34,072 nt of DNA from an uncultured Gemmiger sp. (GTDB lineage Bacteria; Bacillota; Clostridia; Oscillospirales; Ruminococcaceae). Shown one piece after another: positions 3,537 through 6,922 of this stretch (positions within the stretch are counted from its first letter, which is position 1; each line of letters opens with the position of its first letter). The translations under genes were made by a program, and so were the position numbers. The DNA is taken from positions 1 to 34,072 of the forward strand of contig CALXHO010000021.1 of the NCBI GenBank assembly GCA_944388125.1, written 5' to 3'. The notes below the pieces were generated by a model. That model saw only the letters and a list, made by a program, of their open reading frames with translations. It ran no database searches and was not told the DNA's origin.

Positions 3537-5297
3537 ATGACCGATTACCGCAACTACAACCCCCGCAAGACTGCGCTGGACGCCGCCCGCGACCTGCTGA
3601 CCAAGGCCGCCTGCGCCGCCATGGAGAGCGGTGCCCTGCCCAAGACCGAGCTGCCGGATTTCATCGTCGAGATCCCCGCCGACACCAAAAACGGCGACGT
3701 TGCCGCCAACCTTGCCATGGTGGGCGCCCGTGCCTTCCACAAGGCGCCGCGCCAGATCGCCGAGGCTGTGGTTGCCGCCCTCGATCTAAACGGCAGCCTC
3801 TTTGCCCGTGTGGAGATTGCGGGCCCGGGCTTCATCAACTTCTTCCTGGGCGACGGCTGGTTCACCTCGGTGCTGCGCGCCGCCTGTGCCGGCCAGGATT
3901 ACGGCCGCACCGATGCCGGCCAGGGCAAGAAATATAATGTGGAGTTTGTCTCCGCCAACCCCACCGGCCCCATGCACATGGGCAATGCCCGCGGCGGTGC
4001 TCTGGGCGACTGCCTGGCCGCCTGCCTGGACTGGGCGGGCTACGATGTGACCCGTGAGTTCTACATCAACGACGCGGGCAATCAGATCCAGAAGTTCGGC
4101 AAGAGCCTGGCCATCCGCTATCTGCAGCTGTACAAGGGTGAGGAGGCCTGCCCCCTGCCCGAGGAGTGCTACCAGGGTGCCGACATCATCGAGCGCGCCA
4201 AGGAGTTTGCCGCCGTCCACGGCGACAGCTACGTCAACGCCGACTTTGAGGCGCTGAAAGAGGCCATCACCGCCGACGCCCTGCCCAAGAACATCGCGGG
4301 GCTCCAGCGCGATCTGGGCAAGTACCGCATCGAGTACGACGTCTGGTTCCATGAGAGCACCCTCCACGAGAGCGGTGCGGTGAAGGACATCGTCCAGCTG
4401 CTGCTGGACAAGGGCGCCTGCTACAAGGCTGAGGACGGCGCCATCATGTACAAGAGCGCCCAGTACAGCTCCAAGTACGGCGTCGCCAACAAGAAGAAGA
4501 CCGACGACGGCACCGAGGAGGAAGCCAAGGACGAGGTTCTGGTCCGCGCCAACGGCATCCCCACCTACTTTGCCGCCGACATCGCCTACCACTACAACAA
4601 GCTGGCCGTCCGCGGCTTTGACAAGGCCATCGACGTCTGGGGCGCCGACCATCACGGCCACGTGGCCCGCATGAAAGGTGCCATGGACGCCATCGGTCTG
4701 GACGGCGACCGTCTGGACGTGGTGCTGATGCAGATGGTCAACCTGATCCGCGACGGCAAACCCGTCCGCATGAGCAAACGTACCGGCAAGGCCATCACCC
4801 TGACCGATCTGCTGGACGATGTGCCCATTGATTCCGCCCGCTTCTTCTTCAACCAGCGGGAGAGCTCCTCCACTCTGGACTTCGACCTGGATCTGGCCGT
4901 CAAGAATGACAGCGACAACCCGGTCTACTACGTCCAGTACGCCCATGCCCGCATCTGCTCCATCCTGAAAAAGCTGGAGCAGGAGGGCGTCACCTTCCGC
5001 GGCAGCGAGACCGTGGACGCCTCGGTCCTCACCGATCCCGCCGAGCAGTCCCTGCTGCGCCTGATCGCCGCCTTCCCCGCCGAGATTGCCGCGGCTGCCG
5101 AGAAGTACGATCCCGCCCGCATCACCCGCTATACCATTGATGTAGCCAGCGCCTTCCATCGCTTCTACGGCGCCTGCCGCATCCTGGGTGCTGAGGACAG
5201 CGTCCAGCAGGCCCGCATTGCCCTCTGCCTGGGCGTCCGCGATGTGCTGCGCAATGCCCTGACCATGTTCAAGATCACCGTTCCCGAGAGCATGTAA
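3537..5297 (+). CDS. argS: arginyl-tRNA synthetase
   Basis: ArgS charges tRNA-Arg with arginine. The 586-aa class I enzyme has the N-terminal Arg-tRNA-synthetase domain (residues 1-110), FVSANPTGPMHMGNARGG with the HIGH-type motif HMGN at about 147-150, and RMSKRTG near residue 411 in the place of KMSKS, as is common in this family. The C-terminal DALR anticodon-binding domain includes YYVQYAHARICSIL. The ATG at 3537 has AAGGAGA 10-15 nt upstream. It is the last gene of ddl-murI-ywiB-argS and is followed by a strong terminator. Confidence 0.97.
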   Translation: MTDYRNYNPRKTALDAARDLLTKAACAAMESGALPKTELPDFIVEIPADTKNGDVAANLAMVGARAFHKAPRQIAEAVVAALDLNGSLFARVEIAGPGFINFFLGDGWFTSVLRAACAGQDYGRTDAGQGKKYNVEFVSANPTGPMHMGNARGGALGDCLAACLDWAGYDVTREFYINDAGNQIQKFGKSLAIRYLQLYKGEEACPLPEECYQGADIIERAKEFAAVHGDSYVNADFEALKEAITADALPKNIAGLQRDLGKYRIEYDVWFHESTLHESGAVKDIVQLLLDKGACYKAEDGAIMYKSAQYSSKYGVANKKKTDDGTEEEAKDEVLVRANGIPTYFAADIAYHYNKLAVRGFDKAIDVWGADHHGHVARMKGAMDAIGLDGDRLDVVLMQMVNLIRDGKPVRMSKRTGKAITLTDLLDDVPIDSARFFFNQRESSSTLDFDLDLAVKNDSDNPVYYVQYAHARICSILKKLEQEGVTFRGSETVDASVLTDPAEQSLLRLIAAFPAEIAAAAEKYDPARITRYTIDVASAFHRFYGACRILGAEDSVQQARIALCLGVRDVLRNALTMFKITVPESM

Positions 5298-5330
5298 AGC
5301 AGATTTCATCGATCGTTCGATAAAATATAG

Positions 5331-5364
5331 AAGCCCCGCAGGCCAATGGCCTGCGGGGCTTTCT
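5331..5364 (+). terminator. terminator after argS
   Basis: AAGCCCCGCAGGCC (5331-5344), an AAT loop and GGCCTGCGGGGCTT (5348-5361) form a perfect 14-bp stem, followed by a short T-rich stretch. It lies 33 nt after the argS stop. Confidence 0.9.
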
Positions 5365-5466
5365 CGTTTAGGTACACCGAACAGATTTATTATACCATAT
5401 CAGTCAATGTACTTTCAACCCAATTTATGCACAAATAAATCCTTGTAAGGTTGTCGGGTTTGCGAA

Positions 5467-5495
5467 TAGACGTTCCTTTGGCGTAGTGGTATATT
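5467..5495 (+). promoter_or_regulatory. promoter of the candidate large RNA
   Basis: TAGACG (5467-5472), a 17-nt spacer and TATATT (5490-5495) preceded by TGG (extended -10). Predicted start near 5502. No coding gene with a convincing start lies downstream for 1.4 kb, which is why the transcript is read as an RNA gene. Confidence 0.55.
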
Positions 5496-5501
5496 ATAGT
5501 C

Positions 5502-6790
5502 ACAGAAAGAAAACAGCCGGAGATAAGGAGATAGAAACTCCAAGAGCCCACTTTCCAAAAGGTTCGGCCACAAAGTTTTGAAAATCTTTTCTAAAGGCTT
5601 AAGGTCAAATTCATTGAAGGTTTCTTTCTAAAAAACATACCGAAGAAACGGATCGGCAGAGTAAATCAAAGAAAACAGATTCACAATCGGAAAATTCAGA
5701 AGTAAATTTCAAAAGCAGGATTTTCGAAAGAAAAGAATGAAGGAGAAATTGAAAATGAAAAGAAGATTGGAAAAAGTGGGATTTGAAAGAAATGCAGAAA
5801 ACCGAAAGAATCGGATATGCAGAAAGAGATGCGATGGAATACCTTAAAAGTTCCAGAAAAACAGAGTTCAAAACAGACCGATGGTTTTTGGCAAGTTGTT
5901 ACAAAGAGGCACGTCGGCAGGATTCGTAAGGAAGGAGGCTCAGGTCCCATGGCAAACTTTAAAGATCCCATTCATCACCGGCAGGCCTGGGCTTGCTGAG
6001 ACGACAGAAACCACATCAAGAGCCGCAGGTCATAACCTGTAAAGAAGCACTACAAATGATGATTTGGTTCTGAAATCGATCAAGATGCAATCCCAGGGCC
6101 TGTCAAATCAGACAGCTTTATATAGATAGATGTGAAGACGAACGAAGGAGCAAAATCCGGATAGTCCGCCAAACTGATAAGCAAAATCTTACCTTTAAGA
6201 TAAAGCGTAAAGTTCCATCTACTGAACAAGGAGTTACTCCAATGTACTAGAGTAAAGAGAGTTCTTCTCTCAGCATCAAATCCCCAAACCCATTGCAGGT
6301 AACCCAAGATCTTCCCGGTTCCACAGATGCAGGGTAAGCAACGATCGGAAATACGTTGACAAAGTGTCCTGAATTTTCAGGCCGGAGCTACTCCCAGATG
6401 TTCCGAGATAGTTTCAAAGACACCGCAGGGTATCAGGTTCCAGGTAAAGCAAACTGGTCAAATACAAACGATTTTCCCTCTTCCCTTCCCCCAGGCAAAT
6501 AACGAACGACAGGGCGATCGGTTAAAAATCTTCCGAACCATCGAGGCAGGGATCCTTGAATCTCAGCCTGATTCCAGCAAAGTTTCTGGTAACCATTACA
6601 AGCATTCCCAAGATTTTTACCACCAAGAGTTCCGGCAAAATCAAATGGGTTCGATCCACACAACTATCTGGAAGAGGTAGCTCATGAAAATGAGTGAACA
6701 GTCCGAAAAATAGTGAATCACGGGTATGAGGCTATGACTCCGAAGATGTAAGACCGGCGGGACGCACAGAAATGTGCGTCCCGTCTTTTT
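5502..6790 (+). ncRNA. candidate large structured non-coding RNA (about 1.3 kb)
   Basis: The stretch from the argS terminator to the next gene (5365-6922) has no ORF that looks like a protein gene. It is strikingly A- and purine-rich, unlike the GC-rich genes around it. A promoter at 5467-5495 and a strong terminator at 6756-6790 bracket it on the plus strand. It contains many perfect small hairpins: GNRA-capped ones at 5721-5734 and 6681-6694 (GAAA loops), others at 5802-5814, 6026-6039, 6053-6066, 6100-6115, 6186-6201, 6368-6381 and 6558-6574, and a near-identical pair at 6230-6240 and 6384-6394. A T-loop-like GGTTCGATCC lies at 6648-6657 without a complete tRNA around it. In size and ornateness it resembles OLE, ROOL or GOLLD RNAs, but I cannot assign it to any. 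Degraded DNA or a long leader of the racemase gene are alternatives; the terminator argues against the latter. Confidence 0.55.
6756..6790 (+). terminator. terminator of the candidate large RNA
   Basis: GGCGGGACGCAC (6756-6767), a 6-nt loop and GTGCGTCCCGTC (6774-6785) make a 12-bp stem with one G-T pair, followed by TTTTT (6786-6790). Confidence 0.9.
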
Positions 6791-6861
6791 GTGTTTGCCG
6801 TCTGTCGGTTGCGCCCCGTTCTCTCCTCGTTCCGCCGGGAGGCCCGGGACGGGCATTTTTC

Positions 6862-6890
6862 TTGCATATTTTACCGGAGGGCCGTATAAT
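6862..6890 (+). promoter_or_regulatory. promoter of the racemase gene
   Basis: TTGCAT (6862-6867), a 17-nt spacer and a perfect TATAAT (6885-6890). It lies after the preceding terminator and about 33 nt before the racemase start, so the racemase does not need the upstream transcript. Confidence 0.85.
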
Positions 6891-6922
6891 AAGGATATTA
6901 TCCAAAAATGGGAGGTGTGCGC

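Follow-up and report, generated by a model that had tools for sequence, protein, structure and literature searches.

A candidate stand-alone structured RNA gene with an array of tiny open reading frames next to argS in Gemmiger

What occupies the long stretch between argS and the next gene in the gut genus Gemmiger? In the 34,072-nucleotide contig of an uncultured Gemmiger sp. that we analyzed as a whole (CALXHO010000021.1, hereafter the window), the interval 5400–6790 is flanked by argS, which ends at 5297, and by a racemase gene, which starts at 6908. An earlier reading made from the letters alone (hereafter the sequence-only reading) saw some 1.4 kb without a credible gene behind argS and proposed a non-coding RNA of about 1.3 kb, possibly of an undescribed class, in the manner of OLE, ROOL and GOLLD, which are large ornate RNAs lying between unrelated genes. 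Our comparison of the locus among relatives retains the RNA gene and changes its nature: 5467–6790 has the appearance of an RNA gene that stands alone, belongs to no described class and is bracketed by a conserved promoter and terminator of its own, and the alignments support a structured RNA that carries an array of Shine-Dalgarno (SD)-led tiny open reading frames (ORFs) and ends at an intrinsic terminator. Independence, covariation and the lack of an Rfam match agree with the earlier proposal; the conserved tiny ORFs, which the sequence-only reading overlooked, make “non-coding” the wrong word. Bacterial RNAs are usually classed as mRNA, leader or non-coding RNA, and this gene, structured, free-standing and with ORFs below gene-finder size, fits poorly into any of the three.

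The interval is indeed devoid of an ordinary sense-strand gene and set apart by composition, as had been claimed: GC content is 0.34–0.46 in 300-base segments across 5300–6799, compared with about 0.58–0.66 in the flanking genes, and the surplus of A and of purines peaks at 5450–6049. A single sense-strand ORF reaches at least 60 codons (5817–5999), and its in-frame end is the conserved 16-codon ORF1 discussed below, while the antisense strand contains four ORFs of 75–91 codons and the end of a long frame from 9802. Behind argS, at 5331–5361, lies a perfect inverted repeat of 15 nt. To compare copies, we assembled a set of 35, made up of the window copy and 34 of the 35 loci retrieved (loci and genomes are given L and G numbers); L043, whose contig ends inside the RNA, was left out of all alignments, and L055, a near copy of L047, was left out of the all-pairs covariation scan and some further analyses. 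The proposed plus-strand promoter (TAGACG-17-TATATT with an extended TG, 5467–5495) is a weak match when taken alone, agreeing at 9 of 12 positions, with 4 promoter-like sites versus 2.4 expected in shuffles. Nevertheless, both it and the terminator recur among relatives on the same strand: the promoter region is present in 34 of the 35 aligned copies, L041 being truncated by a contig end, and in the 32 copies where both can be placed, the stop codon of the last ORF precedes the terminator by 4 nt (30 copies) or 5 nt (2 copies). From promoter region to terminator the copies measure 506–1538 nt, about a threefold range, so that 1.3 kb describes the window copy rather than a fixed size, and that copy is best seen as a core plus variable stretches. 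We also note that the segment between the 5′ hairpin and ORF1 (5560–5900) is purine- and A-rich, weakly conserved and highly variable in length among copies. At the 3′ end of L038, the terminator hairpin has no T tract; some 250 nt further on comes a similar hairpin that has one, as if an insertion had occurred after the terminator stem.

The gene is nearly universal in its genus and independent of its downstream neighbours. A blastn search of 61 genomes with 5400–6800 matched 33 of the 35 from Gemmiger and none of the 26 outside it, and a block search within the genus recovered 32 of 35, missing G022, in which the contig breaks off within the RNA, and the incomplete genomes G014 (68%) and G030 (82%). 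With eight genomes of five other genera described below, these matches provide the conservation in relatives on which the sequence-only reading had made its proposal depend. In 28 of the 35 copies argS precedes the RNA in the same orientation, 24 times at a distance of 170–387 nt and four times at about 1.1 kb; in 4 further copies the upstream contig extends just 66–847 nt and lacks argS. Downstream genes vary in kind and strand, and comparison of the neighbours of all 35 copies revealed no conserved gene immediately behind the RNA, in the same orientation, that it could regulate; such differing or opposite-strand genes favour a free-standing RNA. In addition, L027, L028 and L049, from two genomes that are both Gemmiger formicilis, are shorter extra copies at loci away from argS; the strain G. 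formicilis ATCC 27749 yielded three copies. The proteins beside L027 resemble, by eye and without a family search, a sensor kinase and a MATE-type transporter.

We take OLE, ROOL, GOLLD, tmRNA and 6S to be among the Rfam 15 families, all 4227 of which were compared with the whole window by cmscan without any match at the gathering cut-off. Up to E 10, 18 hits fell within 5300–6900, all below the cut-offs and mostly on the hairpin after argS, and OLE, ROOL and GOLLD were absent among them. The window yielded no tRNA or tmRNA, and there was no match in phages and plasmids, searched by blastn with the window copy only, or in viral contigs, searched with one exact pattern. Among open-licence papers we found no account of such an RNA or architecture, and Gemmiger, Subdoligranulum and Faecalibacterium go unmentioned in the main texts of PMC8040213 and PMC11109978.

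The most conserved blocks of the alignment hold short ORFs of 2–16 codons with SD-like sequences, and four of them are named in the window: MANFKDPIHHRQAWAC* (ORF1), MY*, M..SEK* and MTPKM* (asterisk, stop codon). The sequence-only reading had held that a clear protein-coding signal would speak against its RNA, and such a signal is present in a form it did not foresee, namely minute ORFs with conserved ribosome-binding sites and swapped stops. ORF1 keeps its start, frame and stop in all 35 copies (TGA in 33, TAA in 2), reads MANFKDPIHHR[R/Q]AWAC* in most Gemmiger copies, and shows 29 synonymous changes among 53 inferred, compared with a null of 16.5 ± 3.2 (P < 0.0005); three MRY-type copies were left out of one extra ORF1 synonymous-change test only. 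The two-codon ORF is represented by ATGTAC in 35 of 35 copies, each with an in-frame stop at codon 3–5, whether TAG, TAA or TGA, and the last ORF stops at codon 6 in 34 of 35 (the exception is L044) to give MTP[K/I][K/M/I]* or, once, MSPKQ*, with 13 of 26 changes synonymous versus a null of 8.1 (P = 0.014). An intact ORF2, or PPN frame (once PPD; for example MMKATTPPNRIYLNFT*), is found in 20 copies, where it ends 18–35 nt before MY*, and 12 of 34 changes in 14 copies are synonymous versus a null of 7.2 (P = 0.016). Finally, a ..[S/T]EK* frame closed by TAA, TAG or TGA is present in 23 copies. Three of the four ORFs tested (ORF1, MTP and PPN, not SEK) thus show a synonymous excess.

The abundance of such ORFs is likewise far from random. 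In 20 chosen transcripts of 45 (13 of 35 from Gemmiger and 7 of 10 from other genera), SD-led ATG ORFs of 2–5 codons number 51, compared with 6.5 ± 2.6 in 200 shuffles (maximum 14) and 2 on the antisense strand; for 2–16 codons the count is 95 versus 19.0 ± 4.5 (maximum 32) and 3 antisense, and for those of 2–16 codons with CC-N-ATG it is 54 versus 1.3 ± 1.1 (maximum 5) and none antisense. Among 29 longer open frames of the window, collected crudely and with the best SD deciding the start, 2 have the same CC-N-ATG. Furthermore, two-codon ORFs are spaced 127–133 nt apart in seven copies (L155, L021, L024, L040, L041, L047 and L055), which suggests repeated modules; other spacings are 143 nt in L052, 504 and 106 nt in L178, and 633 nt in L158. 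L155 has about eleven tiny ORFs, several of two codons. Its transcript positions 411, 544, 671 and 799 carry MY*, MF*, MY* and MF* in alternation about 130 nt apart, and the sequence shared by modules 1 and 3 gives the impression that a unit of two modules was duplicated. A 30-codon ORF at 5755 of the window was dropped, as it is unlisted in the near relatives L030 and L045.

Around these ORFs the RNA appears to fold. Directly behind ORF1, a domain of three helices (P1, P2 and P3; Table 1) is paired in 93.0% of alignment cells and shows both-side changes that preserve pairing in 12 of 32 pairs, compared with 3.5 ± 0.8 when shuffled and at most 6 when slid; for P1 itself, 94.1% of cells are paired and both-side changes occur in 4 of 17 pairs. 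Unaided, RNAalifold found P1 and P3, not P2. Across genera, where 21 copies were examined (L160b being anchored on the wrong ORF), the P1 duplex is preserved, though its bases differ, in L155 (−34.8 kcal/mol), L158 (−30.8), L160a (−30.0) and L178 (−30.3), while their own shuffles give −18 to −23. The GCCG/CGGC closure that the sequence-only reading had drawn between 5516–5519 and 5915–5918 stands: at least five base pairs of this GCCGG/CCGGC helix are possible in 35 of 35 copies, as the best match in a 9 × 16 nt search without shuffle control, and its variants CGCCAG/CTGGCG, GCCGA/TCGGC, ACCGG/CCGGT and CAGCCGA/TCGGCTG are compensatory. Next to it, the 5′ hairpin occurs as GGAAC/GTTCC in 10 copies, GGAGC/GCTCC in 4, GGAAT/ATTCC and GGAGC/GCTCT in 1 each and GGAGn/ACTCC in the rest, with poor pairing in L028 (AAAGC/GTTCC). 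By contrast, the GGAG-YTA-CTCC hairpin noted at 6230–6240 is not general, as 8 of 35 copies have CGCC there and L033, L038, L050 and L051 lack the GGAG. The folding-energy z-score is −3.1 for 5500–6380 (20 shuffles), −1.25 for 5905–6130 and +0.75 for 6200–6752. As positions 6100–6104 are common to P1 and to a small hairpin, CTGTC-AAATCA-GACAG, the two exclude each other; the hairpin can form at least four pairs in 38 of 41 copies (34 Gemmiger and 7 others; missing in L021, L033 and L052), with a mean of −7.8 versus −5.8 kcal/mol shuffled and 33 of 41 copies below their own shuffled mean. As a sign of a switch this competition is suggestive only. A short ATATAGAT element nearby is also present in L155, L158, L167 and the first copies of L160 and L161, all of other genera.

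Table 1. Features of the candidate RNA gene, in window coordinates
Feature	Position	Strand	Remark
Promoter region: upstream box (ATGNACAAAT-like), TGCGAATRGAC (−35 region, 5461–5471), extended −10 TG..TATATT (5490–5495)	5425–5500	+	conserved (alignment)
Long-range helix, 5′ strand GCCGG	5516–5520	+	partner 5914–5918
5′ hairpin GGAG..CTCC	5527–5541	+	covaries
Long-range helix, 3′ strand TCGGC	5914–5918	+	
SD of ORF1, AAGGAAGGAGG	5928–5938	+	nearly invariant
ORF1, MANFKDPIHHRQAWAC*	5949–5999	+	16 codons; start, frame and stop conserved
P1, 5′ strand	5980–5997	+	last ORF1 codons and first base of stop codon
P2 (6008–6017 with 6058–6070) around P3 (6026–6030 with 6035–6039)	6008–6070	+	
P1, 3′ strand	6086–6104	+	
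Hairpin CTGTC-AAATCA-GACAG	6100–6115	+	6100–6104 pairs with 6111–6115
ATATAGAT element	6120–6127	+	consensus; ATAGAT is the commoner core
Degenerate ORF2 (..D S P P N *)	6160–6177	+	no start codon in window genome
SD AAGGAG and two-codon ORF ATG TAC TAG, MY*	6228–6250	+	ORF at 6242–6250
ORF MKMSEQSEK*	6684–6713	+	..[S/T]EK* frame in relatives
Last ORF, MTPKM*	6734–6751	+	ATG A[C/G]T CCN in 35 of 35 copies
Intrinsic terminator	6756–6785	+	13 pairs; begins 4 nt past last-ORF stop

We tentatively favour a reading in which these elements form a free-standing, modular, ribosome-gated RNA of gut Oscillospiraceae, with arrays of tiny ORFs interlocked with long-range helices, that might gauge or buffer translation in trans. 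In this model the RNA would be transcribed, and the tiny ORFs would be loaded with ribosomes, whose position would set the folding of the RNA. As the last codons of ORF1 provide one strand of the long conserved helix P1, translation of ORF1 should open the fold: a ribosome ending ORF1 would occupy that strand, open the domain and free the other strand for the competing hairpin. Ribosomes on ORFs of 12–16 codons would finish mostly 13–20 nt before the next two-codon ORF, where a re-start could be possible, and a ribosome on the last ORF would end 4–5 nt from the terminator and cover its base. The RNA could then alternate between being covered by ribosomes and being folded, depending on the efficiency of initiation, early elongation (several of the tiny ORFs contain TP or PPN) and termination. 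Acting in trans, it would sense or buffer translation. Ribosome gating, if correct, would show that an RNA device can have strings of two-codon ORFs as its working parts. Gemmiger offers a case that can be tested directly, and related genera share its layout.

Several results weigh against this reading. The counted P1-P2-P3 structure was drawn from the same sequences in which it was scored, and although both-side changes are found in this domain, a covariation scan of all pairs, judged by a tree-based null and of little power over 880 columns, was clear for the terminator pairs only (6090–6101 reached E 0.3). P1 pairs no better in L049 and L026 than with swapped partners, is weak in L180 (−23.4 versus −19.8 kcal/mol) and was not found in L179; the competing hairpin is just modestly better than shuffles, and the positive z-score of 6200–6752 means that energy alone lends the 3′ half no structural support. 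As for the ORFs, 15 of 35 copies, that of the window among them, lack ORF2 or have a degenerate form of it, and the SEK frame has no synonymous excess (10 of 42 versus a null of 11.1, P = 0.72). The ORF counts are not independent, since the 20 transcripts are related and some sister copies were recognized partly by their tiny ORFs. Furthermore, since the end of ORF1 and the PPN frame lie in paired regions, part of their synonymous signal may reflect pairing; the PPN-frame pairing itself changes from CAGG..CCTG to CAGA..TCTG among copies.

Ranked below trans sensing or buffering, and rather unlikely in our judgement, is an RNA that works without translation, whose tiny ORFs would only place ribosomes to protect it from nucleases or from early transcription termination, the peptides and any gating being irrelevant. 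The covarying long-range helices would suit such an RNA, and two-codon minigenes have been proposed in PMC8708949 to shield the axe-txe mRNA from nuclease. Conservation of ORF1 at the amino-acid level and the position of its end inside P1 nevertheless suggest more than protection.

Less probable still, the transcript could be a polycistronic mRNA for very small formylated peptides acting in the cell or as signals. The conserved ORF1 and MTP peptides would agree with this, as would the related ORF1 pattern, TTPAQ, of other genera, yet the second residue of the two-codon product varies between genera (MY*, MF*, MI* and MC*), which hardly suits a specific effector, the peptides are presumably too short for a usual export signal, and the helices would be superfluous. 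The dual-function RNAs SgrS and RNAIII are structured and each encodes one protein of tens of residues; the present RNA is like them in joining structure with peptide-coding capacity, here judged by sequence signal, and unlike them in carrying a string of 2–16 codon ORFs instead of one protein. Comparably improbable is a minigene sink, in which repeated short ORFs with strong SDs would consume initiator tRNA or release peptidyl-tRNA and thereby slow growth. PMC8708949 reports that overexpression of some two-codon minigenes is toxic, those with strong SDs the most so, although the paper’s own minigene caused no growth inhibition. A gene kept in 33 of 35 Gemmiger genomes with conserved helices, and without indication of strong or conditional expression, speaks against a sink.

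Very unlikely is a leader or attenuator of the downstream gene. The fixed gap of 4–5 nt between last ORF and terminator in 32 copies would fit, as would a racemase gene less than 300 nt downstream on the same strand in 12 of the 35, but elsewhere the downstream genes differ and are sometimes on the opposite strand, paralogs occupy other loci (L027, L028 and L049), and L160 and L161 hold tandem copies, each with its own terminator. Trp-type attenuators pair the end of an ORF in a helix with a competing pairing and set an ORF near the terminator; the short ORF paired in a helix and the last ORF beside the terminator recall them here, the competing pairing being only suggestive, whereas there is no conserved regulated operon. 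Papers on minigenes and regulatory upstream ORFs (uORFs) describe the axe-txe minigene mg2, of two codons, as regulating the downstream toxin gene and possibly protecting the mRNA (PMC8708949), the ilvB and fthC uORFs as sensing translation for the gene behind them (PMC11109978), and the TopAI-YjhQ uORF as regulatory (PMC12121999). The ORFs of 2–6 codons with an SD that are present and conserved here match these at the sequence level, as very short ORFs proposed to act via ribosome position or RNA folding; the described ones precede the gene they control, however, whereas several tiny ORFs here share one stand-alone RNA with no conserved downstream gene. Finally, a purely non-coding large RNA of the OLE, ROOL or GOLLD sort is scarcely tenable, since its length, isolation and the folding of 5500–6380 are countered by the absence of an Rfam match at gathering level, or of any such family up to E 10, and by the conserved tiny ORFs. 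The likeness to those RNAs (PMC12286853) lies in a large ornate RNA between unrelated genes, and the differences in the missing model match, the tiny-ORF array, the threefold length variation and, for ROOL and GOLLD with their phage and plasmid habitat, the lack of a match in the phages, plasmids and viral contigs searched.

Beyond Gemmiger, the RNA was found in eight genomes of five other genera of the family. Synteny with argS revealed homologs in five genomes of three genera (L155; L158 and L159; L160 and L161), with L160 and L161 each holding two tandem RNA copies downstream of argS, every copy with promoter and terminator. A spaced −35/−10 promoter pattern was found in 10 of 297 family genomes at 11 places (5 Gemmiger and 5 others), compared with one genome for the backward control, and added G291, G114 and G199 as sister-genus carriers. 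ORF1 of the other genera reads MAIEPAQFGQAVGTR*, MVDTTPAQFGQTVGNC*, MFSDTTPAQKGRLGSC*, MSNTEPVQQWQARGR* or MYHTEEPVQLVQGV*. By shared promoter, ORF1 pattern, MY* and MTP*, the assignment of G138, G291, G187 and G070 is firm; that of G066 and G184 is good, and that of G114 and G199, in which RNA and argS lie on separate contigs, is weaker, resting on promoter and tiny-ORF array. Behind argS in sister genera, 14 stretches were examined: 5 contain a copy, and in 9 neither motif nor blastn revealed one; one of the nine, L166, comes from G199, which carries a copy elsewhere.

Other searches were narrower. A pattern search in named genomes returned 29 stretches, 25 of them titled Gemmiger. A covariance model of the ORF1 block (R1) scored highly only in Gemmiger among 396 family genomes (8 genomes, 142–161 bits), missing the sister-genus copies because it is too genus-specific; seven other hits at 18.7–23.4 bits were treated as noise without inspection. 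An order-wide search with the last-ORF pattern, a strict one that misses known copies, matched 3 of 394 genomes, none of them outside the family. L067, labelled Candidatus Acutalibacter stercorigallinarum, was rejected as a further genus, its RNA being 98.5% identical to that of L022, with 96% identity over 4.6 kb. Its argS is 61.7% identical to that of the window, compared with 91% for the argS of L022; in L067, argS seems to have been replaced and the adjoining RNA retained. Lastly, a strong sigma-70-like promoter match (11 of 12 positions, TG-extended) lies on the minus strand of the window at 5389–5418, facing argS.
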